A stretch of 64,000 nt of DNA from Crassaminicella thermophila. GTDB lineage: Bacteria > Bacillota > Clostridia > Peptostreptococcales > Thermotaleaceae. The notes below the pieces were generated by a model. The model ran no database searches. It was not told the DNA's origin and saw only the letters and a list, made by a program, of their open reading frames with translations. Positions 17,224 through 51,184 of the stretch are shown here, piece after piece. The DNA is taken from positions 124,001-188,000 of the forward strand of contig NZ_CP042243.1 in NCBI RefSeq assembly GCF_008152325.1, read 5' to 3'. Every line of letters starts with the position of its first letter. Position 1 is the stretch's first letter. The position numbers and the translations under genes are program-made.

Positions 17224-17238
17224 GTAATTAATTAAATG

Positions 17239-17324
17239 TTTTGCTAGGGGTGCCTTTTGGCTGAGAAGGAGAAATCCTAACCCTTAAAACCTGATGCAGC
17301 TAGTACTGCCGTAGGGAAGCAAGA
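17239..17324 (+). promoter_or_regulatory. TPP riboswitch 1 (THI element)
   Basis: The conserved cores are present: AGGGGTGC, GGCTGAGAAGG, AACCCTTAAAACCTGATGCA and GCCGTAGGGAAGC. A closing P1 stem (TTGCT/AGCAA) is visible. It senses thiamine pyrophosphate and represses the thi genes through the terminator just downstream. Confidence 0.95.
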
Positions 17325-17345
17325 AACCAAAAATTATTGATTTCT

Positions 17346-17373: not shown

Positions 17374-17396
17374 CAATGGAAAAATTTAATATGATA

Positions 17397-17487
17397 TACA
17401 AGGGGAGCTCATAGGAATGGGCTGAGAAAGAGATGTTATCTCTGACCCTTATAACCTGATTTGGGTAATGCCAACGTAGGGAATATG
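17397..17487 (+). promoter_or_regulatory. TPP riboswitch 2 (THI element)
   Basis: This second complete THI core is in tandem with the first: AGGGGAGC, GGGCTGAGAAAG, TGACCCTTATAACCTGAT and GCCAACGTAGGGAA. The P3 helix differs in sequence and length from copy 1, so it is a diverged copy rather than a recent duplication. Confidence 0.95.
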
Positions 17488-17503
17488 TTTATGATTTTTA
17501 TTT

Positions 17504-33453: not shown

Positions 33454-34680
33454 CTATACTAATCTTACCTGATGATATACCTTTTTACCTCTTTTTATCA
33501 TTAAAGTACCATCTTTAAAATCTGATTCTTTAATTATAAGCTGAATATCACTTACCTTCTCACCATCGATTGATATACCGCCTTGTTGAATCAAACGACG
33601 TCCCTCACTTCGAGATGGGATTAAGTTTGTTTTTGAAAGTAATGTCATAATGTTCATTCCTTCTGCAAATTCAGAATGTGGAATTTCTGTAAAAGGCACA
33701 TTTTCACTTGCAGGTCCTTTTCCAAATAGTGCTCTTGCAGCTTCTTGTGCTTTTTTTGCTTCTTCTTCACCATGAACTAATTTGGTTACTTCAAAGGCTA
33801 AAATTTCTTTTGCTTTATTGATTTCTGCGCCTTCTAAGCTTCCAAGTCTTCTTACTTCATCCATTGGTAGGAATGTAAGAAGAGATAAGCATCTTTCAAC
33901 GTCTGCATCATTAACATTTCTCCAGTATTGATAAAAGTCATATGGAGATGTTTTTTCAGGATCAAGCCAAATAGCTCCTGATTCTGTTTTGCCCATTTTT
34001 TTACCTTCACTTGTGGTAAGAAGTGTGAAAGTCATACCATAAGCGGGTTTGCTTTCTACTCTTCGAATAAGGTCAACACCGCCAAGAATATTAGACCATT
34101 GGTCATCTCCACCTAATTGCATCTTACATCCATATTTTCTGTGTAATTCTAAAAAGTCATAAGACTGCATAATCATATAGTTAAATTCAAGGAATGATAA
34201 ACCTTTTTCCATACGGCTTTTAAAACATTCTGCTGTAAGCATTCTATTTACAGAGAAGTGCTTTCCAATTTCTCTTAAGAAAGGAATATATTCTAAGTTC
34301 ATTAACCAATCTGCATTATTTACCATAATTGCTTTTCCTTCTGAGAAATCTAGGAATTTTGAAAGTTGCTTTTTAAAGCACTCTGCATTGTGATTGATGG
34401 TTTCTGGGGTCATCATTTTTCGCATATCTGTCTTGCCTGTAGGATCTCCAACCATTGCTGTACCACCACCGATTAATACAATAGGTCTATGTCCAGCTTT
34501 TTGCATGTGCATCATAGTAATCGCTTGAAGAAAGTGTCCTACATGTAAACTATCAGCAGTAGGGTCAAAACCAATATAGAATGTAACAGATTCTTTTCCA
34601 AGAAGCTCTCGAATTTCATCTTCATGGGTAGTCTGTTGGATAAAACCACGTTCTTTTAGTACATCAAAAACATTGCTCAC
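33454..34680 (-). CDS. tyrS: Tyrosyl-tRNA synthetase
   Basis: This 408-residue class Ic enzyme charges tRNA-Tyr. The ATP motifs are HVGH (residues 46-49, in [16 protein letters not shown]) and KMGKT in [26 protein letters not shown] forms the tyrosine pocket, and an S4 RNA-binding domain is at the C-terminus ([18 protein letters not shown]). The KMGKT and Q-L-G-G-D-D-Q-W pattern is of the TyrZ-like type. GTG start with AAAGGAGG upstream. It is controlled by the T-box leader that precedes it. Confidence 0.97.
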
Positions 34681-34701: not shown

Positions 34702-34935
34702 ATAAAAAATAAAGGGCTTATCTCATCATAAGGACGAGAAAGCCCGTGGTACCACCTTAATTCGCATAAAGCCTCAATCCACGATAACGAGTGGGAACCG
34801 TCGAAGTTTTTGGCTTCGAAACTCCAGAGTGTAATTCATCTTGCCATGTACTGTAGACTTTTCACCAGCCAGTCTACTCTCTTTTTTGTAACCATGGGGA
34901 CTACTAGGCTCTTTCAACGTCTTTCTATATAACTA
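34702..34935 (-). promoter_or_regulatory. Tyrosine T-box leader of tyrS
   Basis: Reading the minus strand, the conserved T-box AAGGTGGTACCACGGG lies at 34743-34758, followed by the competing terminator (GGGCTTTCTCG ... GAGATAAGCCC, then a T run, 34702-34745). Stem I carries the AGTAGT motif, and a specifier loop reads GAAT-TAC-ACTC with the Tyr codon TAC at 34831-34833. Uncharged tRNA-Tyr should favour the antiterminator and tyrS expression. Confidence 0.95.
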
Positions 34936-34990: not shown

Positions 34991-36061
34991 TTATGCAAGG
35001 AAATTTAATGGAATTAAACCAATTGACACACCGACTACATAAAGAATAAACAATCCATAAACAATAGCCATTATTGATGCATCTTTTTTGCTTACGCCAT
35101 CTTTTTTAAGAAGTAAACCTGCTGTAGTAAGCATTGATAGTAATAAGAAACCAAAGATTATAATATTTTCACCAAAGCTTACTGGAATTTCTTTTCCTGC
35201 TATAATCATAGGAAATCCTAAGCATATACAAATGTCAAATATATTTGATCCTACTGCATTAGATACTGCACCATCTGCATCTCCCAGTCTTGCAGATTTT
35301 ACAGATAAAAGTGTATCTGGAATAGAAGTACAAGCAGCTAGTATGATTACTGAAACAAGTACGGTTGGTATATTGAAAGTATTAGAGATTACTATTGCTG
35401 ATTGTACAATTGCATCACAGCTAATCCAAAGCAGTCCAATAGAGATTGCAATTACAGTAAATATTTTTGAATAAGGCATATCGATAAAATCTTCATCTTC
35501 ACCTTCTTCTTCAAGTTCGTGCTTTAATTCTGCTGTTGCAGCAATTTGCTCGCCTAATGTAAGATTTTTTCTATATTTTTTTGTTTGAAGATAGAGAGTT
35601 ATAATATACCCTGCATAGATACAGATTAAGATAATCCCTGAAATAGGTGTAAACTTTCCTAAATATGTTGTAGCGACTAATGTCAAAATACTAATAGTGT
35701 AAAAACACATATCTCGGTAAACCCCTGAACGATCAGCTTTTAACTTATCAGTTCCTTGATAAGCAAATATTGATAACATAGGGATAAGCAAGATGTTAAA
35801 TATTCCTGAACCAGCAATCGTAGGAACACCTACATCAGCAAATTCTTTATACACTATTACAGCAATCATAGCTGTTGAAAACTCTGGAAAGGATGAGGCA
35901 ATCGCATCGAAGGTTGCACCTCTTACAGAGTTTGGTATATTCAGTTTTAATCCCAATACATGTAAAACATCACCTAACTTATCTGATGCTTGATTGATTA
36001 CCCAGGCCATAACAAATAACATGACAAGAGCAATCCAAATATTACTAATCCAACTAAACAA
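34991..36061 (-). CDS. CaCA-superfamily Na+/Ca2+ (cation) exchanger-like membrane protein
   Basis: This ~356-residue polytopic protein has two homologous halves of roughly five helices. Each has an alpha-repeat-like motif: RGATFDAIASSFPEFSTAM in the first, and ILAACTSIPDTLLSVKSARLGDADGAVSNAVGSNIFDICICLG in the second (shown here in part: TSIPDTLLS and NAVGSNIFDI). An acidic loop (HELEEEGEDEDFID) lies between. TTG 36061 has GGAGGG 7 bases upstream, better than the ATG at 36109. It is divergent from the TerD cluster, whose proteins bind Ca2+. Confidence 0.82.
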   Translation of the reverse strand: MFSWISNIWIALVMLFVMAWVINQASDKLGDVLHVLGLKLNIPNSVRGATFDAIASSFPEFSTAMIAVIVYKEFADVGVPTIAGSGIFNILLIPMLSIFAYQGTDKLKADRSGVYRDMCFYTISILTLVATTYLGKFTPISGIILICIYAGYIITLYLQTKKYRKNLTLGEQIAATAELKHELEEEGEDEDFIDMPYSKIFTVIAISIGLLWISCDAIVQSAIVISNTFNIPTVLVSVIILAACTSIPDTLLSVKSARLGDADGAVSNAVGSNIFDICICLGFPMIIAGKEIPVSFGENIIIFGFLLLSMLTTAGLLLKKDGVSKKDASIMAIVYGLFILYVVGVSIGLIPLNFLA

Positions 36062-36293
36062 ACAATATCCCTCCTCGATAATATTGAGTTTGCATAAAAT
36101 GATTGTCATACATTACATTTTATCAGTTTGTATCCGGTTTCACAACTACATATTTCTTTTTTCAAATGTTGATGTTGTTTGTCTGAGGTATATTTTTTGT
36201 AAATTTGAAAAAAACTTTATAAATAGGAGGAATTTAGACGTAAAAAAAGAATTATTGAAAAATAGACAAGAATATAATTAGGGAGGTATTATG

Positions 36294-36872
36294 ATGGCAA
36301 TTAGTTTACAAAAGGGTCAAAAAGTTGATTTGACAAAAACAAACCCTGGTCTTACAAAAGTATTGGTAGGATTAGGCTGGGATACAAACAAATATGATGG
36401 AGGACATGATTTTGATTTAGATGCGGCTGTTTTTATGCTAGGAGAGAATGGAAAAGTTACAAGCGAAAAAGATTTCATCTTTTATAATAATTTAAAGGAT
36501 GCAGCAGAATCTGTAGTTCATCTTGGAGACAACTTAACAGGTGAAGGAGAAGGAGATGACGAGCAAGTTAAGATTGATTTAGCAAAAGTACCTAGCAATA
36601 TACATAAGCTTGCTTTTACTGTAACTATTCATCAAGCTGCTGAAAGAAATCAAAATTTTGGACAAGTTTCGAATGCTTTTATTCGTATCCTAAATGAAGC
36701 AACTGGTGAAGAATTAATTCGATATGATCTTGGAGAAGATTTTAGTATTGAAACAGCTGTTGTTGTAGGAGAATTGTATCGTCATAATGGAGAATGGAAG
36801 TTTAATGCAGTTGGTAGTGGTTTCCAAGGAGGATTAGCTGCCCTTTGTACAAGCTTTGGAATAAATATTTAA
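36294..36872 (+). CDS. TerD-family stress protein 1
   Basis: This 192-residue beta-sandwich protein belongs to the tellurite/stress TerD family. It shows the full pattern: [35 protein letters not shown] and the acidic Ca2+-binding loop [14 protein letters not shown]. It ends with [24 protein letters not shown] 36294 aligns with the starts of the two sister genes; ATG 36291 just before is equally well placed after GGGAGGT. First gene of the Ter cluster. The precise function of TerD is unresolved; it is linked to metal and oxidative stress. Confidence 0.95.
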
Positions 36873-36935
36873 TAAAATCAAATCTAGAAAGGGAGAGCTA
36901 TTTTAGGCTCTGCCTTTTTTATAGGAGTGATAAGC

Positions 36936-37616
36936 TTGAATTATCAAATACTTTATAAAGAGGCTTTTCCATTAGTTGAGATAAAATTGCAAAAAGGAGA
37001 AATGATAAAGGCAGAATCAGGAGCCATGGTATCCATGTCTAGTACAATAGATGTAGAAGGACGTGTAGAGGGAGGTTTTATGAAAGGGTTAGGGAGGATG
37101 TTTGCAGGAGAAAAATTTTTCTTTCAAACCCTTATAGCAAGTCGTGGAGCAGGAGAGGTTTTATTAGCACCATCTGCTCTTGGTGGAGTTGTAGATATAG
37201 AACTGGATGGTTCTTATGGTTTATGTGTACAAAAAGATGGTTTCTTGGCAGCTACACAAAACATTGAAGTATCAACTCAGATGCAAAATTTAACAAAAGG
37301 TTTATTTTCAGGGGAAGGCTTTTTCATTGTCAGAATAAGTGGAAGAGGTACTGTTTTTGTAAATTCTCTTGGAGCGATCCATGCAATAAATATTCCTGAT
37401 CAAGAAGAAGTAATTATTGATAATAGTCATTTAGTAGCATGGCCGGAATATATGCAGTATAGTATTGAGAAAGCATCAAAGGGATGGATCTCAAGCTTTA
37501 CTTCTGGAGAAGGGTTGGTTTGCAGATTTAGAGGGCCTGGAACAGTGCTTATTCAAAGTAGAAATCCTAGTGGATTTGGTTCATGGGTTCGGCAATTTAT
37601 TCCTTCTTCCAAATAA
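36936..37616 (+). CDS. AIM24/TIGR00266-family protein
   Basis: This 226-residue beta-helical protein has the family signature AESGAMVSMSSTIDVEGRVEGG, then GEVLLAPSALGGVVDIEL and SGEGLVCRFRGPGTVLIQSRN. The function is unknown, but the family commonly sits within Ter/stress operons, as here between terD copies 1 and 2. TTG 36936 is preferred with TAGGAG 8 bases upstream; the in-frame GTG at 36927 overlaps that site. Confidence 0.9.
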   Translation: MNYQILYKEAFPLVEIKLQKGEMIKAESGAMVSMSSTIDVEGRVEGGFMKGLGRMFAGEKFFFQTLIASRGAGEVLLAPSALGGVVDIELDGSYGLCVQKDGFLAATQNIEVSTQMQNLTKGLFSGEGFFIVRISGRGTVFVNSLGAIHAINIPDQEEVIIDNSHLVAWPEYMQYSIEKASKGWISSFTSGEGLVCRFRGPGTVLIQSRNPSGFGSWVRQFIPSSK

Positions 37617-37730: not shown

Positions 37731-38345
37731 ATGGCAATCAATTTACAAAAGGGGCAAAGGATTGATTTAACAAAGGGAAATGCTGGACTATCGAGAATTA
37801 TGGTTGGACTTGGATGGGATCCTGTTGAGAAAAGTAGTGGAGGAGGTTTCCTATCAAGCTTCTTTGGTGGAGGCAGCAATAATGCAGATATTGACTGTGA
37901 TGCATCAGTGCTTATGTTAGATGGTAATGGAAAATTAGCTAAAAAACAAGATCTTATCTATTTTGGGAATTTAAGAAGTGCTTGTGGTAGTGTTGTGCAT
38001 ACAGGAGACAATCTTACAGGCGAGGGAGAAGGAGATGACGAGCAAATTATTGTAGAGCTTGGGCTTGTTCCTTCAAATATTCACAAGTTAGTATTTGTGG
38101 TAAATATTTATGACTGTATAAGACGCAAGCAGGATTTTGGATTGATCCAAAATGCATATATTCGTATTGTAAATAGTGCAAATATGCAAGAGTTGATTCG
38201 ATACAATTTATCAGACAATTATGCAGGCAAAACAACTTTGATTGTAGGAGAGATTTATCGTTATAATGGAGAATGGAAGTTTGCTGCTATTGGTGAAGGA
38301 ACTCAAGATGCTTCACTGAGCGAGATCGTAAAAAAATATACATAA
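37731..38345 (+). CDS. TerD-family stress protein 2, with glycine-rich insertion
   Basis: This 204-residue TerD homologue carries an insertion (SSGGGFLSSFFGGGSNN, around residues 35-52) between the GLGWDP strand and the DIDCDASV acidic strand. The Ca2+ loop [14 protein letters not shown] is intact. The C-terminus ends differently from copies 1 and 3 (IGEGTQDASLSEIV instead of [12 protein letters not shown]). It is probably a TerX/YceC-like paralogue with a changed partner surface. Good GGGAGG site. Confidence 0.93.
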   Translation: MAINLQKGQRIDLTKGNAGLSRIMVGLGWDPVEKSSGGGFLSSFFGGGSNNADIDCDASVLMLDGNGKLAKKQDLIYFGNLRSACGSVVHTGDNLTGEGEGDDEQIIVELGLVPSNIHKLVFVVNIYDCIRRKQDFGLIQNAYIRIVNSANMQELIRYNLSDNYAGKTTLIVGEIYRYNGEWKFAAIGEGTQDASLSEIVKKYT

Positions 38346-38379: not shown

Positions 38380-38961
38380 ATGGCTATTAACTTAACTAAA
38401 GGACAAAGAATTGATTTAACAAAAACTAACCCAAATCTTAAAAAAATTATTGTAGGACTTGGTTGGGATACAAATAAATATGCAGGTGGATATGATTTTG
38501 ACTTAGATGCTTCAGCATTTTTAGCTGGAGAAGATGGAAAAGTAAAATATGACCAAGACTTTGTTTTCTATAACAACCTAGAAGGTGGAAATGGTTCAGT
38601 TATTCATACAGGAGACAATAGAACAGGTGAAGGAGATGGGGATGATGAGCAAATAAAAATCGAATTTGACAAAGTCCCATCTCACGTACATACAATTGGT
38701 ATTGCGGTTACAATTCATGATGCAGTACAAAGAAACCAAAACTTTGGACAAGTATCTAATGCATATGTTCGTGTTATAAACGAAGAAACAAACGAAGAAA
38801 TACTTCGTTATGACTTAGGAGAAGAATTCTCTGTTGAAACAGCCCTTGTTGTTTGTGAGATTTATCGCCACAATGGAGAATGGAAATTTAAAGCAATTGG
38901 TAGCGGATTCCAGGGAGGACTGGCTGCGCTTTGTAGAAATTATGGACTTCAAGTAGACTAG
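38380..38961 (+). CDS. TerD-family stress protein 3
   Basis: This 193-residue TerD homologue is close to copy 1: [35 protein letters not shown], the Ca2+ loop [14 protein letters not shown] (one variant Arg) and [12 protein letters not shown]. It is the last of the TerD group and is followed by a strong terminator. Confidence 0.95.
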
Positions 38962-38967
38962 GAAAAA

Positions 38968-39008
38968 TAAACCCAAAGCGTTTATAAAGCGTTTTGGGTT
39001 TATTTTTA
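38968..39008 (+). terminator. Terminator after the terD genes
   Basis: ATAAACCCAAA pairs with TTTGGGTTTAT, enclosing GCG and CGC stems, followed by TTTTTATTTT. It separates the terD group from the biosynthetic module. Confidence 0.88.
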
Positions 39009-39118: not shown

Positions 39119-40309
39119 ATGAGGTATTTTAATTATTTAACTCCTGAAGAAATAGAATCTATTTTTTATTCTCCTCCCCAGAACTTTAGTAGAGATAGCT
39201 CAAAGGATTTGCTTGCTTATACATTGGGTGCAACTTTATATATGCCTGCTACAAAGGAAAATATTGCAGAAGATATTATAACTAAGAAGAATGCAGGAAT
39301 AATGTCTATGGTTATCTGTTTAGAAGATGCTATTGGAGATTACGCAATTATAGAGGCAGAAAAATATGTATGTAGGCATTTTAACAAATTATCTTTGGCA
39401 ATAAAAAATGGGGAGATAGATGATCAAAATATTCCCCTTATTTTTTTAAGAGTAAGGAATAAAGAGCAGATGTTAAGCATGGCTGACCAAATAGGAGAAG
39501 ATATAAAATTACTAACAGGATTTGTGTTTCCAAAGTTCTCTTATGAAAATGGAGCAGGTTTTTTCGAAGCCTTAAAGAAGATAAATACTATATTAGGAAA
39601 AAAGCTATATGGTATGCCTATTTTTGAAACAGCGGATATAATCTATAAGGAAACAAGAATGCAGTCATTAGGTAAAATAAGGAATGTATTAGATGACTAT
39701 AATGAATTGGTACTCAATATACGAGTGGGAGCAACGGATTTTTCTAGTCTGTTTGGAATTAGGCGAGGTTATGATATGACTATTTATAATATAGCTGTTA
39801 TTCGGGATTGCATTGCAGATATATTAAATTGTTTTGCAAGAGAAGGTAGTCAGTATGTTATATCAGCTCCAGTTTGGGAATATTTTTCAAGTGGGGATAG
39901 AGTATTAAAGCCTCAATTACGCAGGAGTCCATTTGAAGATATTTATGGTTCAGAAGGAATTGAAATTAGGAAGGAGCTTTTAGATGCTTATTTAGATGGT
40001 CTTATTCAAGAAGTACTTTTAGATAAAGCAAATGGATTTATTGGAAAGACTATTATTCATCCAAGCCACATCACACCTGTACAGTCTCTATATGTAGTAA
40101 GCCATGAAGAATATATGGATGCATCTAGTATTATAGAAAATAACGATGGCAGTATTGGTGTTATGAAAAGCCAGTATAAAAATAAAATGAATGAAATAAA
40201 ACCACATTTAAATTGGGCAAAAAAAATTATGATAAAATCAAAAATATATGGGGTGTATCATGAAAGACAAAACTTTACCAGTTTACTTACCAAAAAAGTA
40301 TACGTATAA
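39119..40309 (+). CDS. CitE-like (HpcH/HpaI family) C-C lyase of the Ter module
   Basis: This 396-residue TIM-barrel lyase resembles citrate lyase beta subunits. SMVICLEDAIGD holds the metal-binding Glu and Asp, IFLRVRNKEQM follows, GMPIFETADI and NIRVGATDFSSLFGIRRG line the barrel, and KTIIHPSHI matches the terminal strand. In published genomic analysis of Ter systems, CitE-like genes occur with PRTases and HAD phosphatases in a predicted nucleoside-like metabolite pathway. It overlaps the next gene by 50 bases, so the two are translationally coupled. Confidence 0.85.
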   Translation: MRYFNYLTPEEIESIFYSPPQNFSRDSSKDLLAYTLGATLYMPATKENIAEDIITKKNAGIMSMVICLEDAIGDYAIIEAEKYVCRHFNKLSLAIKNGEIDDQNIPLIFLRVRNKEQMLSMADQIGEDIKLLTGFVFPKFSYENGAGFFEALKKINTILGKKLYGMPIFETADIIYKETRMQSLGKIRNVLDDYNELVLNIRVGATDFSSLFGIRRGYDMTIYNIAVIRDCIADILNCFAREGSQYVISAPVWEYFSSGDRVLKPQLRRSPFEDIYGSEGIEIRKELLDAYLDGLIQEVLLDKANGFIGKTIIHPSHITPVQSLYVVSHEEYMDASSIIENNDGSIGVMKSQYKNKMNEIKPHLNWAKKIMIKSKIYGVYHERQNFTSLLTKKVYV

Positions 40310-42743
40310 TATATTAAAAGATTTATGTGTAACAGTAAATATTACAAAAAATCATTACAATATTCCAATAGAAAGCTTGTTTTTAATGGCTGCAAGAAAA
40401 AATAAAAAAAGAGGATTTTTATTTGTAAGTAAATTACTTGGAAAACATATTCCTGTTTTTCCTCATGCTTCACTTTTAACTGGAGTGGCTTTAGCAAGAG
40501 AATATATGAAAGAGGTTTATGGAGAAAATACTTTTCTTACAAAAGATATAATAGATGGGTTGATTAATCAAGAAGATAGCAAATACATTTATGAAAGAAT
40601 TAAAGAACAATATATAGAGTTGCCAGAACAAACTATATTTATTGGCTTTGCAGAAACAGCTACTGCATTAGGGCATTCTGTGTATGATGCTTTTTCTAAA
40701 AATGCAACATATATACATACTACGAGGGAAAATATAATAAACCTTGATTCCGTTATTAATTTTGAAGAAGAACATTCTCATGCAACGACGCATAGACTTT
40801 ACCTGCTAGATAAAGAGTTATTATCATCGAAAGCTCCTGTTGTATTGGTAGATGATGAGATTACGACAGGAAAAACAGCAATCAATATTATAAAAGCAAT
40901 TCATAAAGCTTATCCAAGAAAGGAATATGCTATTGTATCTATACTTGATTGGCGTACTGATGAGGATAAAAAAAGATATGAAGAATTAGAAAAAAGTTTA
41001 GGAATAAAAGTGCACACTGTTTCACTTATTTCAGGTTCTATTGAAGTAGAAGGAAAACCGATTACAGATATAGAAGCTAATGATAAAAAAACAGTAAAAA
41101 ATAATATAAATCCAGTAATAAATATTTATAAATTACAAGAAAAAGAAGTATTTTTTAAAAGTATATTATTTTCTTCTAAAAATACATTAGGACAGATAAA
41201 TGCAAGCCCTTATTTGAAAGAAACAGCTAGATTTGGGATTACAAGCAAAGATCGTGATTATATAGATAGAGAATGTAAAAGAATAGGAAATATTTTAGCT
41301 AATATGAGAAAAGGAAAAAATACGCTCTGTCTTGGAACCGGAGAGTTTATGTATATACCTATGAAAATTGCTGCATATATGGGAGAAGGAGTAAAATATC
41401 ATTCTTCTACTCGAAGTCCTATTCATCCATATGATAAAGCTTTGTATGGAGTAAAAAATGCATTTTCGTTTGAGAGCTTTGATGATCCTTCTGTAATGAA
41501 TTATCTTTACAATATTCCTTATGGATATTATGATGATCTTTTTTTATTTTTAGAAAGAGAAGTAGAAAAAGAGAGATTAAATCCTTTAATAAAAGTGCTT
41601 AATCAGTTAGGAATTTATAATATAACTATTATTATATGTTCACATTATAACATTTCTAATCCTTCAATAATGGGAAGCTATGACAAAGAAGATGTGACTT
41701 TTCTTTTAAAGGATATTAGCAATGTAATGGAAGAGAGAGGAACGAAAGAGCGTGAAGAAGCAATACAAAAGGGAGTACACTATTCAGAAATGCTTCCTAT
41801 AGAATATAAGCCTTCTTCAGAATATATAGATTTATTCTATACATCATTAAAGGAATCGGCAAAAAAATTAGCAACAGCAGTAGGTGTTGTAGCTGAAAAG
41901 ATACTAAGGAATAGAGGATATGACATTGTTATTGCATCACTAGCTAGAGCAGGTACGCCTATAGGTATATTGATCAAGCGCTATATAGCTTATAAATACA
42001 ATATTAATGTTTTTCATTATAGTATTTCTATAATAAGAGGAAAAGGAATAGATGAAAACGCTATAAAATATATTCTAAAAAATCATCCAAACAAGGAAAT
42101 TCAATTTGTAGATGGTTGGACAGGAAAAGGAGCTATTACAAAAGTACTTCATAAAGCTTGTAAAGATTTTCAAGAAAAATACGGTATTTATTTAAATGAT
42201 GATTTGGCAGTACTTGCAGATCCAGGCTGTTGTGTATCTACTTTTGGCACAAGAGAGGATTTTTTAATTGCTAGTGCATGTTTAAATGCTACAGTTTCAG
42301 GGTTAGTTAGCCGAACAGTACATCGAAAAGATTTGATAGGGCCTAATGATTTTCATGGTGCAAAATATTATAAAGAATTAGAAGAAGAAGATGTATCAAA
42401 ATTTTTTATAGATACAATTACAAATGAATTTCAAAATGTAGAAGAAGACATAAATAAACAAGTTAAAATATCTTCTGATCCTACATGGGCAGGACTGAAG
42501 GATATTGAAAAAATTCAAAAGGAATTTAAAATAGAAGATATAAACTTGATAAAACCTGGTATTGGAGAAACTACAAGAGTGTTACTTAGAAGAGTTCCAT
42601 GGAAGATTCTTGTAAAGAAGAAAGAAAATCCAAACTTAAAACACATTTTGCTTTTAGCAAAAGAAAAATGTGTTCCTGTTGAAATATATTCAAGTATGAC
42701 TTATGAATGTTGTGGATTAATAAAACCTTTAAAGGGGAAATAG
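40260..42743 (+). CDS. Fused PRTase_2 - TRSP - PRTase_1 (StiP) - PELOTA protein of the Ter module
   Basis: This 827-residue protein joins what are often two genes. Residues ~30-270 form a phosphoribosyltransferase with PRPP motif VVLVDDEITTGKT (around 195). About 300-410 is the TRSP domain, named for SSTRSPI (around 382). About 500-720 is the second PRTase-like (StiP/PRTase_1) domain with IASLARAGTPIG and FVDGWTGKGAI (around 616). About 738-827 is a PELOTA-type RNA-binding domain (LLLAKEKCVPVEIYSSMTYECCG). ATG 40260 is inside the CitE-like gene, after GGGGTG. It is predicted to make a PRPP-derived, nucleoside-like product; the RNA-binding tail hints at action on RNA. Confidence 0.85.
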   Translation: MKDKTLPVYLPKKYTYNILKDLCVTVNITKNHYNIPIESLFLMAARKNKKRGFLFVSKLLGKHIPVFPHASLLTGVALAREYMKEVYGENTFLTKDIIDGLINQEDSKYIYERIKEQYIELPEQTIFIGFAETATALGHSVYDAFSKNATYIHTTRENIINLDSVINFEEEHSHATTHRLYLLDKELLSSKAPVVLVDDEITTGKTAINIIKAIHKAYPRKEYAIVSILDWRTDEDKKRYEELEKSLGIKVHTVSLISGSIEVEGKPITDIEANDKKTVKNNINPVINIYKLQEKEVFFKSILFSSKNTLGQINASPYLKETARFGITSKDRDYIDRECKRIGNILANMRKGKNTLCLGTGEFMYIPMKIAAYMGEGVKYHSSTRSPIHPYDKALYGVKNAFSFESFDDPSVMNYLYNIPYGYYDDLFLFLEREVEKERLNPLIKVLNQLGIYNITIIICSHYNISNPSIMGSYDKEDVTFLLKDISNVMEERGTKEREEAIQKGVHYSEMLPIEYKPSSEYIDLFYTSLKESAKKLATAVGVVAEKILRNRGYDIVIASLARAGTPIGILIKRYIAYKYNINVFHYSISIIRGKGIDENAIKYILKNHPNKEIQFVDGWTGKGAITKVLHKACKDFQEKYGIYLNDDLAVLADPGCCVSTFGTREDFLIASACLNATVSGLVSRTVHRKDLIGPNDFHGAKYYKELEEEDVSKFFIDTITNEFQNVEEDINKQVKISSDPTWAGLKDIEKIQKEFKIEDINLIKPGIGETTRVLLRRVPWKILVKKKENPNLKHILLLAKEKCVPVEIYSSMTYECCGLIKPLKGK

Positions 42744-42746
42744 ATA

Positions 42747-43550
42747 ATGATATTTGCAAGCGACTTAGATCGAACGTTGATATATTCAAAAAAATTTGTT
42801 TCAAATGATGAAGGGATAAAATTAATAGAAACAAAGGGAAAAGAAGAAATATCCTTTATGACTAAAAAAGCAATAAAAAGACTTAAAAAGCTTTCTGAAG
42901 AAATATTATTTATACCTGTTACAACCCGTACTATAGAACAATATAGAAGAATCTCTCTCTTTCAAGAAGAGATTCGCCCAAAGTATGCAATTGTCAGCAA
43001 TGGTGGAAATATACTCATTAATGGGGAAATAGATTATGAGTGGAACAATATTATACAGAAAAAAATAAAAGAAGAATGTATATCTTTTAAAGAGGTAGAA
43101 TCAAAGTTTGAAGAGATTGAATCAAATCAATGGGTAATCAATAGAAAAGTTGCGGATAATTTGTTTAGTTATTGCATAATACATCCAGAGTATGTACCGG
43201 AAGTATTATATTCTTTTATAGATTGGATGGAAGATAATAATTGGAAAGTATCTTTACAAGGAAGAAAACTATACTTTGTTCCCTGTTGTGTATGCAAATG
43301 GGAGGCTACTCAATATATAAAGATGCGTGAAAATATAGATTTTGTAGCTTCAGCAGGAGATTCACTTTTAGATTTACCAATGTTAAAGATGGCTGACTAT
43401 GCAGTAGTGCCTCCCCATGGAGAAATATATAAAAAATATGAGCGAACCTATGAAACAATACAAAATATAACATTTACAGAAAAAGAAGGGATTTTTGCAG
43501 CAGAAGAAATATTAGAAAAAATATATGGATTAATAAAACAACCAGTATAA
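42747..43550 (+). CDS. HAD-superfamily phosphatase (Cof/SPP-like) of the Ter module
   Basis: This 267-residue hydrolase has HAD motif I FASDLDRTLI (nucleophile Asp), motif II PVTTRT, and motif IV SAGDSLLDLPML. The C2-type cap (residues ~90-190) contains a Cys-Lys stretch near the active site (CCVCKWEA). It starts 3 bases after the PRTase fusion and ends the module, fitting removal of phosphate from the pathway product. Confidence 0.88.
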   Translation: MIFASDLDRTLIYSKKFVSNDEGIKLIETKGKEEISFMTKKAIKRLKKLSEEILFIPVTTRTIEQYRRISLFQEEIRPKYAIVSNGGNILINGEIDYEWNNIIQKKIKEECISFKEVESKFEEIESNQWVINRKVADNLFSYCIIHPEYVPEVLYSFIDWMEDNNWKVSLQGRKLYFVPCCVCKWEATQYIKMRENIDFVASAGDSLLDLPMLKMADYAVVPPHGEIYKKYERTYETIQNITFTEKEGIFAAEEILEKIYGLIKQPV

Positions 43551-45882: not shown

Positions 45883-46040
45883 CTTCTTTTAAAATATATA
45901 AAAGTTGGAAATGAATAAAGGAGAAAAAGGAATATGTGGAGAATATAGGAAATTGATTTTACTAATCTATATATAGTTGCTATTTGCATTATATACATAT
46001 TTCATGAATGAAAAAAGCGTAAGGGGTGTATATAAATCAA

Positions 46041-46991
46041 ATGAGTAAAGTAGGGAATGAACTGAAGATGTTGATGATCCTTCAAAGTAGAGGAAAGATG
46101 AAAGCAAAAGACTTAGCAAGAGAAATAGAAGTCAGCGAAAGAGAAATAAGAAGGTATAAAGATGATCTAATACAGGCAGGTATATATATCGAATCAGATG
46201 CAGGGAAATATGGAGGATACTCTATTGGAAATGATAGTTATCTTTTATGTCTAAATTTTACGGATCAAGAATATATGGCATTGCTTATGATAAATGAAGA
46301 ACTTAAAAAATCAAATCATTTGGTATTAAAGGATTACAATACAGCTATAGATAAGATAAATATAGTACACAAAAAGAAAATGCATAATTTATCTAACAGT
46401 TATAACTATATGCTTAAAGGAGCTATAGCCAATATAAATTTTCAAAAGGAAAGAAAAAAACTTATCGATATCCATGCAGCTATACTTACAAAGAATAAAG
46501 TAAATATAAAATATACTTCTTTAACTTCAGGACAAACAGAAAGAGTTGTATGGCCATATGCTACATTTCAGTATAAAGGAGATATGTATTTTACAGGATA
46601 TTGTGAAAGAAGAAAAGCAACTATATATTTTAAATTATGTAGAGTAAATAAATATAGTGTTTTAGAAGAAAAGTTTGAAATGGACAAGCCATTTGATTTA
46701 GAAGAATATATGAAAAACTGCTTTGGGATTTTTAAAGATCAAGCAATACAAGTAAAATTAAAAATTCATTATCCAATGTCACAAATAGTAAAAGAAAAAA
46801 TTTGGGTTGAAAATCAAAAGATTATTGAAAATGAAGAAGATAAATCCATAATATTTGAAGCAATGATGGAAGGATTAGAGGAAATAAAAAGTTGGATATT
46901 AAGTATGGGAGGAAGTGTAGAGGTTATTGAGCCAAAGATGTTAATAGAAGAAATAAAAAAAGAAATAGAAAAGATGAAAAGTATTTATTAA
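46041..46991 (+). CDS. HTH-WYL transcriptional regulator at the head of the cas operon
   Basis: This ~316-residue regulator has an N-terminal winged helix-turn-helix (GKMKAKDLAREIEVSEREIRRYKDDL) and a central WYL domain (YTSLTSGQTERVVWPYATFQYKGDMYFTGYCERR). A WCX-like C-terminal region follows (FEAMMEGLEEIKSWILSMGG). WYL proteins often control CRISPR or phage-defence genes and sense nucleic-acid or nucleotide ligands. ATG 46041 is used; the longer GTG at 46026 overlaps the AAGGGG site and cannot be ruled out. It lies 63 bases before cas6, same strand. Confidence 0.85.
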   Translation: MSKVGNELKMLMILQSRGKMKAKDLAREIEVSEREIRRYKDDLIQAGIYIESDAGKYGGYSIGNDSYLLCLNFTDQEYMALLMINEELKKSNHLVLKDYNTAIDKINIVHKKKMHNLSNSYNYMLKGAIANINFQKERKKLIDIHAAILTKNKVNIKYTSLTSGQTERVVWPYATFQYKGDMYFTGYCERRKATIYFKLCRVNKYSVLEEKFEMDKPFDLEEYMKNCFGIFKDQAIQVKLKIHYPMSQIVKEKIWVENQKIIENEEDKSIIFEAMMEGLEEIKSWILSMGGSVEVIEPKMLIEEIKKEIEKMKSIY

Positions 46992-47054
46992 AAATTTTAT
47001 TACTACCAATATATGTCCATGTTTGAAATTATAATAAAAAATGGAGGTGAGATT

Positions 47055-47789
47055 GTGCGATTAAAATGTGAGTATAAAACTAAAGAGATACCAGTTGGAT
47101 ACAATATGTTATTAGTAAGTCTGATCAAAGAAGCATTAAAAAAATCTGATGAAAATTATTTCAATAAATTATATAAATACGATGAAAATATAGCAAATAA
47201 ACGGAGTAAAAATTTTACTTTTGCAGCTTATATTAAAAATTATGAGAGAGCAGAAGAAATATTCAAAGTAAATGATCGAGTAATACTTAATATAAGTTCT
47301 CCAGATTTAGAATTTATGATTAATTTGTATAATGGATTATTGAAATTATCTAAATTTCAATATAAAACATTTGAATTATACAAGTTAAAAATTGATTTAA
47401 TCAAAGAAAAGAAACTAGCAACTAATGAAGTGATTTTCAAAACTCTATCACCTATATGCATAAAAAATAAAAACAATTATTTTATGAAAATAGAAGATGA
47501 TAAATATATTGATGAACTGAATTACATAGCAAATTTAGTACTTAAAAACTATAGAGGTGAAGGATTAAGAGAGAATCTAATGTTTATGCCATTAGACATG
47601 AAGAAGGTAGTAGTAAAAGAAGAAATAAGAGGTTTTAAAAGTAAAACAAATAGGAAATATCTATATGTAAATTCCTATAGTGGAACTTTTAAAATGAAAG
47701 GGAATGTAAAAGATTTGGAAGATTTGTATGCCTTAGGGGTTGGATTTAAGAGGAATCAGGGGTTTGGAATGATTGAAGTTATAGGGTAG
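47055..47789 (+). CDS. cas6: CRISPR pre-crRNA endoribonuclease Cas6
   Basis: This 244-residue RAMP protein cuts the repeat RNA into crRNAs. The C-terminal glycine-rich loop GVGFKRNQGFGMIEVIG is the Cas6 signature. GTG 47055 is chosen with GGAGGTGA about 5 bases upstream; the longer frame begins 42 bases earlier without a site. It is the first gene of the Cascade set. Confidence 0.92.
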   Translation: MRLKCEYKTKEIPVGYNMLLVSLIKEALKKSDENYFNKLYKYDENIANKRSKNFTFAAYIKNYERAEEIFKVNDRVILNISSPDLEFMINLYNGLLKLSKFQYKTFELYKLKIDLIKEKKLATNEVIFKTLSPICIKNKNNYFMKIEDDKYIDELNYIANLVLKNYRGEGLRENLMFMPLDMKKVVVKEEIRGFKSKTNRKYLYVNSYSGTFKMKGNVKDLEDLYALGVGFKRNQGFGMIEVIG

Positions 47790-47792
47790 GGG

Positions 47793-49485
47793 GTGAAGAC
47801 GATTAATAAAATTAGATTAGAACTTGCGGATTGGTTATATAATGCTGGAATTGTAGGAGTTGCAAACATACTAGATGCTAATGATGTTGCATATAAAAGA
47901 GGAATCAATTATATAGAATTTGAAGAAACAGCATTAGAAAATTTCGAGGAGAAGTATTTTAAGTATTTTATTGATAAATACAAGAAATTTACTTCATGGT
48001 ATAACATAGTGAAATATGAGGATGTAATATTGAATTTTAAAGAAGAAAATGTAGACGAAGAATATTTAGAAAATATAAATAAGCAAATAGATTATGTCAA
48101 AGAAAAGCTAAAAAGCGCTAGTTATAAAAGTGCATATGTAATTATTCAAAATAAAGAAAAGGATTTATTAAAAGAAGAAAAGCAACTGAACAAAATAAAG
48201 AAAAATAAAAAACAAAAAGTTGAGGATGTATTACCTAATATTAAAGAGCAATTAAATAGAATGCAACAAATTATTGAGTATTTGAAAACAGATGAGGTTG
48301 CAAAGATTATACTTGCTAAAAATATTATTTATGATATAATAGCAAAATTTTGGTCAGATGTTAGTTTTTTAAATAAAAATAATAATAAAAAAAATATGTA
48401 TGAAGAATACAGGATATATTTTGTTGATGGGACATTACAATATATAGAAAAGATAATAGAGAAAGCTAAGTATAAGTGTTTTGTGTGTGATAGGAAAATA
48501 TCCAAGTTATCAAAGCCAGTATCGTACGATTTAACATGGATTAATAAAATGGGTGTAGATATGTCTAGAAAAACTTCTCATTTTTGGGACTTAAGTGGAG
48601 ATACTTTTATATGCCCAATATGTAATTTTGTATATTCTTGTATTCCAGCAGGATTTACAGTAATTAAAGGGCAGGGATTATTTATTAATCAGAATTCAAG
48701 TATAAATAATTTGATTGCAGTTAATAAACATGCATTAGAACGTAATACTACGTTTGAAGAGTTAGAAGATGCAAGTTATTTTAGTATAGTTGAAAATATT
48801 AATCAGAATAAGGTTGAGCAATTGGATAAAGAAATTGAGAATATACAGATCATTAAATTGGATTCTACTAATGTAGTTAGACCCTATACTTTTAATATTT
48901 TATCTAAAGACAAGTTAAAGGTAATGAATGGAAATAAAAAGATGTTACAATCAATGATTAAAGTCAAAGTTAAAGTAGGTACTAAAGAGTATTTAAACTT
49001 ATACAAAGAAGTGGTTACAAGATTATATGAAGGTAAGAATCAATTTGATTTAATTAATCAACTATTTCATCTTAGATTAGATAAAAAATTTAATAAGCTA
49101 CATTTTATTGATATGATTATAAAAATCAACAACAATTTTATAGGAGGGAGAGAGAAGAAAAAAATGGTACATCATAAAGTTATTAATGATTGTAAAGGAT
49201 TTGGACTAGATTTGAGAATATCTTATGTTAACAAAAAAGCAGAAAATAAGTTAAATGGGATTAGCTATAGATTATTAAATGCCTTAAAGACAAAAAATAC
49301 ATCAAAATTTATGGATACTTTATTAAATGCATATATGTATCTAAATAAGCAAGTTCCAACTATCTTTATTGAGGGTTTAAAAGATACTGATAAATTTCAG
49401 ACACTTGGATATGCTTTCTTATTAGGATTACAGGGAGAAGAAATGAAAGAAAATAAAAAAGATGATATTAAGGAGGATATGATAA

Positions 49486-49493
<8 letters not shown>
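47793..49493 (+). CDS. cas8b1: Type I-B Cascade large subunit Cas8b1/Cst1 (CXXC-CXXC)
   Basis: This 566-residue large subunit of the Tneap-type interference complex is expected to recognise the PAM. It has two Cys pairs, CFVC (around residue 229) and CPIC (around 273), which give the Cst1 family its CXXC-CXXC name and probably bind zinc. A Lys-rich coiled coil precedes them. GTG 47793 overlaps a GGGGTG run; an ATT start at 47802 would be better spaced but is non-standard. It overlaps cas7 by 8 bases. Confidence 0.9.

Positions 49494-51184
<1,691 letters not shown>

Follow-up and report, generated by a model that had tools for sequence, protein, structure and literature searches.

In a 64,000-nucleotide stretch of Crassaminicella thermophila DNA (the window), a single open reading frame joins the two phosphoribosyltransferase (PRTase) proteins of the Ter biosynthetic module, and the encoded chain is predicted to be a two-site PRPP-dependent ribosylating enzyme whose product would be dephosphorylated by a neighbouring HAD phosphatase to give a nucleoside-like TerD ligand, a reading to which we assign a probability of roughly 0.58. 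The ribosylation model is backed by the predicted folds of PRTase_2 and StiP, by their conserved loops and by intact HAD motifs. A shared pathway is backed by recurrent fusion and by gene company, as 93 of the 103 StiP loci also carry lyase, PRTase_2 and HAD genes and 95 have TerD on the DNA retrieved around them, several of the deviating loci being cut by a contig end. Against such a pathway stand two loci, L053 and L117, which hold StiP-PELOTA and HAD with neither PRTase_2 nor lyase detected; they represent either a reduced module or incomplete assembly.

The first-pass annotation had described a lyase, a four-domain fusion and a HAD phosphatase that overlap or nearly overlap, and open reading frames together with Pfam matches confirm this arrangement at 39119-43550. 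The locus and its surroundings contain the following features.

34991-36109, minus strand: Na/Ca-type (CaCA) exchanger adjoining the ter genes
36291-36872, plus strand: first TerD family protein (Pfam)
36927-37616, plus strand: AIM24/TIGR00266 family protein (Pfam)
37731-38345, plus strand: second TerD family protein (Pfam)
38380-38961, plus strand: third TerD family protein (Pfam)
38963-39007, plus strand: terminator-like stem of 20 pairs, after the third terD and before the lyase gene
39119-40309, plus strand: CitE/HpcH-like TIM-barrel C-C bond lyase, 396 aa (Pfam PF15617, C-C_Bond_Lyase, E 1e-124)
40248-42743, plus strand: fused PRTase_2-TRSP-StiP-PELOTA_1 open reading frame, 831 aa, all four Pfam domains in one open frame
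40377-41036, plus strand: PRTase_2 domain, predicted adenine-PRTase-like fold, aa 44-263 (Pfam E 3e-73)
40851-40877, plus strand: canonical PRPP loop DDEITTGKT, aa 202-210
41220-41600, plus strand: TRSP domain, aa 325-451 (Pfam E 1e-42)
41673-42419, plus strand: StiP domain (formerly PRTase_1), predicted type I PRTase fold, aa 476-724 (Pfam PF11202, E 6e-109)
42111-42131, plus strand: PRPP-type loop DGWTGKG of StiP, aa 622-628
42486-42725, plus strand: PELOTA_1 domain, L7Ae/YbxF-like, aa 747-826 (Pfam E 4e-36)
42552-42578, plus strand: K-turn-type motif KPGIGETTR, aa 769-777
42747-43550, plus strand: HAD-IIB (Cof/SPP-like) phosphatase, 267 aa (Pfam Hydrolase_3, E 2e-7)

The lyase and fusion frames overlap by 62 nt, or by 50 nt if the fusion starts at the ATG at 40260. 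The latter start, giving a protein of 827 aa, appears likelier from the sequence since GGGGTG precedes that ATG. A gap of 3 nt separates the fusion from the HAD gene, whose ribosome site sits within the 3' end of the fusion. Such close spacing makes joint translation of lyase, fusion and HAD probable. Upstream of the lyase the gene order is terD, AIM24, terD, terD. The module had been called Ter-linked, and this holds insofar as three terD genes adjoin it; as one transcript the linkage probably does not hold, because the strong terminator-like stem at 38963-39007 parts terD from the lyase, so that ter and biosynthetic genes would form two adjacent units. In Klebsiella, ter and biosynthetic genes likewise form two transcription units (PMC8115787). 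No convincing promoter element common to the regions upstream of terD and of the lyase was found in this AT-rich DNA. A stretch of some 70 nt in front of the first terD gene (36185-36252) is 87% identical in a Marinisporobacter genome (L050) and might be a conserved promoter or leader. A PADLOC search gave no match of weight.

AlphaFold2 models of StiP-PELOTA and of the whole fusion chain gave PRTase folds and an L7Ae-like PELOTA domain at mean pLDDT values of about 94-96; the whole chain reached a pLDDT of 94.1 and a pTM of 0.88. A fold held in common with an enzyme is in itself no demonstration of its activity. The PRTase_2 model resembles adenine PRTase (APRT), with a VIA Z of about 10.7 and a Foldseek E of 4e-6 to E. 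coli APRT (2dy0), and the PRPP loop [D/E]DE..TG.T is kept in 100 of 100 loci, as scored by two patterns each of which misses one locus that the other catches. By modelled fold and DD..TG.T loop, PRTase_2 thus classes as a type I phosphoribosyltransferase. The TRSP domain that follows lacks a PRPP loop, and its model has a helix and strand order like that of a PRTase core. Its profile matched that of PRTase_2 with P 0.0012-0.0014 (control families 0.06-0.83), more weakly with another alignment (P 0.0084), and the likeness falls on the GFAETATALG...HTTRE part of PRTase_2. A profile comparison of TRSP with StiP gave no match and the TRSP profile found no meaningful match among PDB sequences. TRSP is possibly a degenerate PRTase-like repeat, for which these values are suggestive only.

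According to its model, StiP is also a relative of the type I PRTase fold. In the AlphaFold2 model of StiP-PELOTA (pLDDT 95.8), VIA placed StiP closest to PyrR and HPRT (Z about 8-10) and to CriT of the capsule polymerase Bcs3 (Z 10.1 over 215 aligned residues, a tied top match). A PDB sequence search with the fused protein alone returned nothing, PDB profile searches returned weak PRTase and L7Ae matches only, and a viral fold library returned mainly generic PRTases. The predicted folds, APRT-like for PRTase_2 and PyrR/HPRT-like for StiP, agree with the earlier proposal that two PRTases are joined here. The StiP loop differs from the canonical form: DGW.G[KR]G is found in 103 of 103 StiP loci and carries one acid where the canonical PRPP loop has two (DG for DD). 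An RAG or RGG loop is likewise kept in all 103 loci, and loop 1 (SLARAG) is acid-free. That proposal was to fall if PRPP-binding residues were degenerate in both PRTase domains across the family, and this is not what was found, PRTase_2 being canonical in 100 of 100 loci and the StiP loop non-canonical but conserved in 103 of 103.

Having lost the second acid of its PRPP loop, StiP could be non-catalytic. Uracil PRTases work with a DP-type loop, so the loss of the second acid is no proof of inactivity. If StiP were indeed inactive, it might be a PyrR-like fold that binds RNA or senses nucleotides and regulates the module through PELOTA, leaving PRTase_2 as the sole catalytic transferase. PyrR, an RNA-binding regulator, is among the best structural matches, the loop reads DG for DD, and a domain of RNA-binding type is attached. 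However, the loop and its neighbouring residues are conserved over phyla and phages, as suits an active site, and PyrR itself keeps UPRTase activity; we therefore consider a purely regulatory StiP rather improbable.

A very different function is implied by the current Pfam name of PF11202 and by plasmid annotations, which call StiP a cysteine protease. Cys678 is kept in 81 of 86 aligned StiP members, which is what this label has in its favour. Nevertheless, the invariant catalytic cysteine of such a protease class is lacking, as Ile or His takes its place in 5 of the 86: Ile in the plasmid-encoded members from Klebsiella and Rhizobium, in phage ME3 and in one viral contig, and His in the divergent L039. 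Plasmid proteins with the cysteine replaced are still annotated as 'cysteine protease StiP'. The predicted model is moreover a PRTase fold with PRPP-type loops, and the same Pfam number or family is called PRTase_1, its earlier Pfam name, elsewhere (PMC13109261, PMC5571608). A protease is, in our judgement, very unlikely.

The PELOTA domain had been described as RNA-binding, a claim that now gains a K-turn-type motif and a predicted L7Ae-like fold, RNA binding itself keeping the rank of a prediction. The PELOTA model matched YbxF in its complex with the SAM-I riboswitch (3v7e) with a VIA Z of 8.5, and its profile found L7Ae, eL8 and Snu13 in the PDB, all at E 0.05 or weaker. All 86 aligned rows share K769, E774, R777 and R782, and K....E..R occurs in 102 of 102 PELOTA loci, one match (KKTIDEFNR) lying perhaps outside the motif site. 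PELOTA_1 thus has the modelled fold and the KxGxxETT[KR]-type signature of L7Ae/Nhp2 and YbxF kink-turn binders, differing from the Asn-Glu pair of L7Ae in that Asn is replaced by Gly, and an E. coli PELOTA_1 has already been modelled with K-turn RNA (PMC5571608). With this motif and fold, RNA stays a candidate substrate or regulator.

If RNA were the substrate, StiP-PELOTA would ribosylate K-turn RNA from PRPP, or both PRTases would act on an RNA-bound acceptor, HAD would dephosphorylate the product and the module would mark RNA. Ribosylation of RNA has a precedent in yeast Rit1, which ribosylates tRNA. PELOTA_1 retains the signature and fold and, with few exceptions among the loci and also in phages, comes attached to StiP, the modelled E. 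coli complex is in keeping with this scheme, and PRPP-dependent O-ribosylation followed by dephosphorylation is known from CriT and CrpP (PMC10299916). On the other hand, no RNA family was found by Rfam within the Ter locus, RNA binding may merely be regulatory, and PRTase_2 resembles a nucleobase PRTase. Overall, RNA as the substrate seems unlikely. A more specific form, in which StiP-PELOTA is a kink-turn-recognising PRPP-dependent RNA ribosyltransferase, Ter marks RNA under stress or phage attack, no free nucleoside is made, and PRTase_2-TRSP holds a further degenerate PRTase repeat, appears more doubtful still.

Conserved residues also mark the remaining two enzymes. In the lyase, E69 D70, E170, R202, D207 and R215 are invariant in 29 family rows. 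The HAD phosphatase has its HAD-IIB class motifs intact (DxD, T/R, K and GDS..D), and D[LI]D.[TS] occurs in all 99 loci where the HAD gene was found.

The same four-domain frame recurs in a Marinisporobacter MAG (L050; 69% identical) and in Alkaliphilus, Pelosinus, Paenibacillus, Lysinibacillus and Streptomyces. Both PRTase genes occur in 100 loci, as a fusion in 18 and as separate genes in 82 (with the window added, 19 of 101 are fused), and all fusions have one junction and one domain order. Fused loci comprise the clade of the window (Marinisporobacter, Alkaliphilus and genome G404), Pelosinus, two Paenibacillus and one Lysinibacillus, and in Streptomycetaceae every locus where both PRTase genes were found is fused. 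In split loci the PRTase_2-TRSP and StiP genes mostly abut or overlap, so that loss of a stop codon, with frame adjustment where needed, suffices for fusing. The tree requires 6 changes between the fused and split states, at least 3 of them forced by well-supported branches. A single origin of the fusion was rejected (p-AU 4e-53; the fused group had been named after the first tree was viewed). Judged from these sequences, the fusion arose more than once and is recurrent; since a count of changes is blind to gain versus loss, re-splitting of fused genes is also possible. That adjacent and overlapping genes are the rule in relatives might suggest an assembly or frameshift artefact in the fused frame, but independent assemblies from several groups share the open frame and linkers similar to that of the window are seen in L050, L051 and L044, so that an artefact can practically be dismissed. 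The survey of split and fused forms thus bears out the initial view that fusion strengthens the functional linkage. Fusion points to selection for stoichiometry or proximity and does not itself demonstrate channelling.

In a phylum-wide sample, the StiP family was present in 10 of 199 genomes, only that of the window being fused; in a class-level sample, 11 of 391 genomes carried it above the family cut-off, with one additional fused case (G404) in the same order. The StiP family is accessory. The 103 StiP-bearing loci examined for gene order include 80 from a scan of public genomes that are the query's closest relatives and so form a biased sample. A distant variant (L039, 4369-7288) has a StiP 26% identical in which His replaces the cysteine, with PRTase_2 and HAD present and no recognised lyase or TRSP.

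Lyase, PRTase_2-TRSP, PRTase_1/StiP-PELOTA and HAD genes that adjoin terD genes are the parts of the biosynthetic module of the Ter stress-response cluster, which many bacteria carry; for this module Anantharaman, Iyer and Aravind predicted a nucleoside-like metabolite in 2012, as their work is summarized in PMC8115787 and PMC7824862; these accounts agree with what the first-pass annotation had said of the module. All these parts occur together here with linkage to TerD and, unlike in the usual module, both PRTase proteins form one chain. In the window's genome TerC gave no match and ATPgrasp_Ter matched a single frame, of 1062 aa and CarB length. We keep the assignment to the Ter module because the ATP-grasp Ter component and TerC are optional and present in some systems only. 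The module itself is thus of a known, ordinary kind, the useful parts being its fused form and the fold assigned to StiP, and fused architectures may already be part of the 2012 survey.

Klebsiella and other enterobacterial plasmids carry the same domains divergently beside terZABCDE. In the regions examined their PRTase proteins are split, with an extra gene between PRTase_2-TRSP and StiP, and the Klebsiella region has an ATP-grasp gene. The Ter cluster of the Acinetobacter jumbo phage ME3, which has been credited with a relatively complete Ter set, likewise has PRTase_2, HAD, StiP-PELOTA and TerD (PMC7824862) and differs in being split, phage-borne and with HAD between the PRTases. Neighbours of this cluster (L002, 2849-12880) include annotated genes for a macro-domain (Appr-1-p) protein and for NAD synthetase, a hint of a link to NAD or ADP-ribose metabolism. 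The Hib capsule polymerase Bcs3 offers a precedent for the proposed pathway in combining a PRTase-fold transferase with a HAD phosphatase, the CriT domain using PRPP and CrpP acting next within one machine, and it differs in that its product is a capsule polymer and that CriT carries one acid in loop 1 (D680) and the other in loop 3 (E818) (PMC10299916), the former without counterpart in StiP.

Near the locus, a CaCA exchanger also lies close to terD in L046, L050 and L066, and this Na/Ca-type exchanger may substitute for TerC. A TelA gene is located elsewhere in the genome (C1, 2789027-2790013). A CRISPR-Cas locus adjoins the Ter island at 46026-50388, where a gene for a WYL regulator precedes those for Cas6, for a Cas_CXXC_CXXC protein and for a protein of DevR/Cas7 type. 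The window further contains tandem TPP riboswitches (17236-17334 and 17391-17500) and a T-box leader (34727-34926, minus strand) before a tyrosyl-tRNA-synthetase-like gene (33454-34680).

In the proposed pathway, the CitE-like lyase would make or trim a small carbon-acid precursor, PRTase_2 would use PRPP to place ribose 5-phosphate on a base-like acceptor, and the second PRTase-fold site, in StiP, would act on the PRTase_2 product or add a second ribose 5-phosphate. HAD would take off the 5'-phosphate to leave a nucleoside-like ligand for TerD proteins, and PELOTA may bind kink-turn-type RNA as a regulator, scaffold or acceptor. The gene order, the fusion with its recurrence and the conserved motifs are observed and the PRTase folds are predicted; we infer every catalytic step and the order of steps, as well as channelling, the product, the role of RNA and signalling through TerD, channelling and chemistry on RNA being speculation. 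To our knowledge, no activity of any family member has been measured. Tellurite resistance in E. coli needs no more than terZ-F (PMC8115787), which makes a different role for the biosynthetic genes probable. Iyer and colleagues proposed that TerB/TerD sense a signal derived from nucleotides in defence against phages and xenobiotics (PMC7824862), and our evidence agrees with a PRPP-based pathway that ends in dephosphorylation.

Relatives of the Ter module, whose nucleoside-like product has been a prediction since 2012, occur in 2567 PLSDB plasmid records, mostly enterobacterial, and in Acinetobacter phage ME3. As StiP is predicted to have a PRTase fold, the name 'cysteine protease StiP', shown on the majority of the listed plasmid records, is misleading to experimenters, and a PRPP assay would be apt before a protease assay. 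The natural single-chain version found here would allow a simple reconstitution, so that the chemistry of the family becomes testable on one polypeptide.
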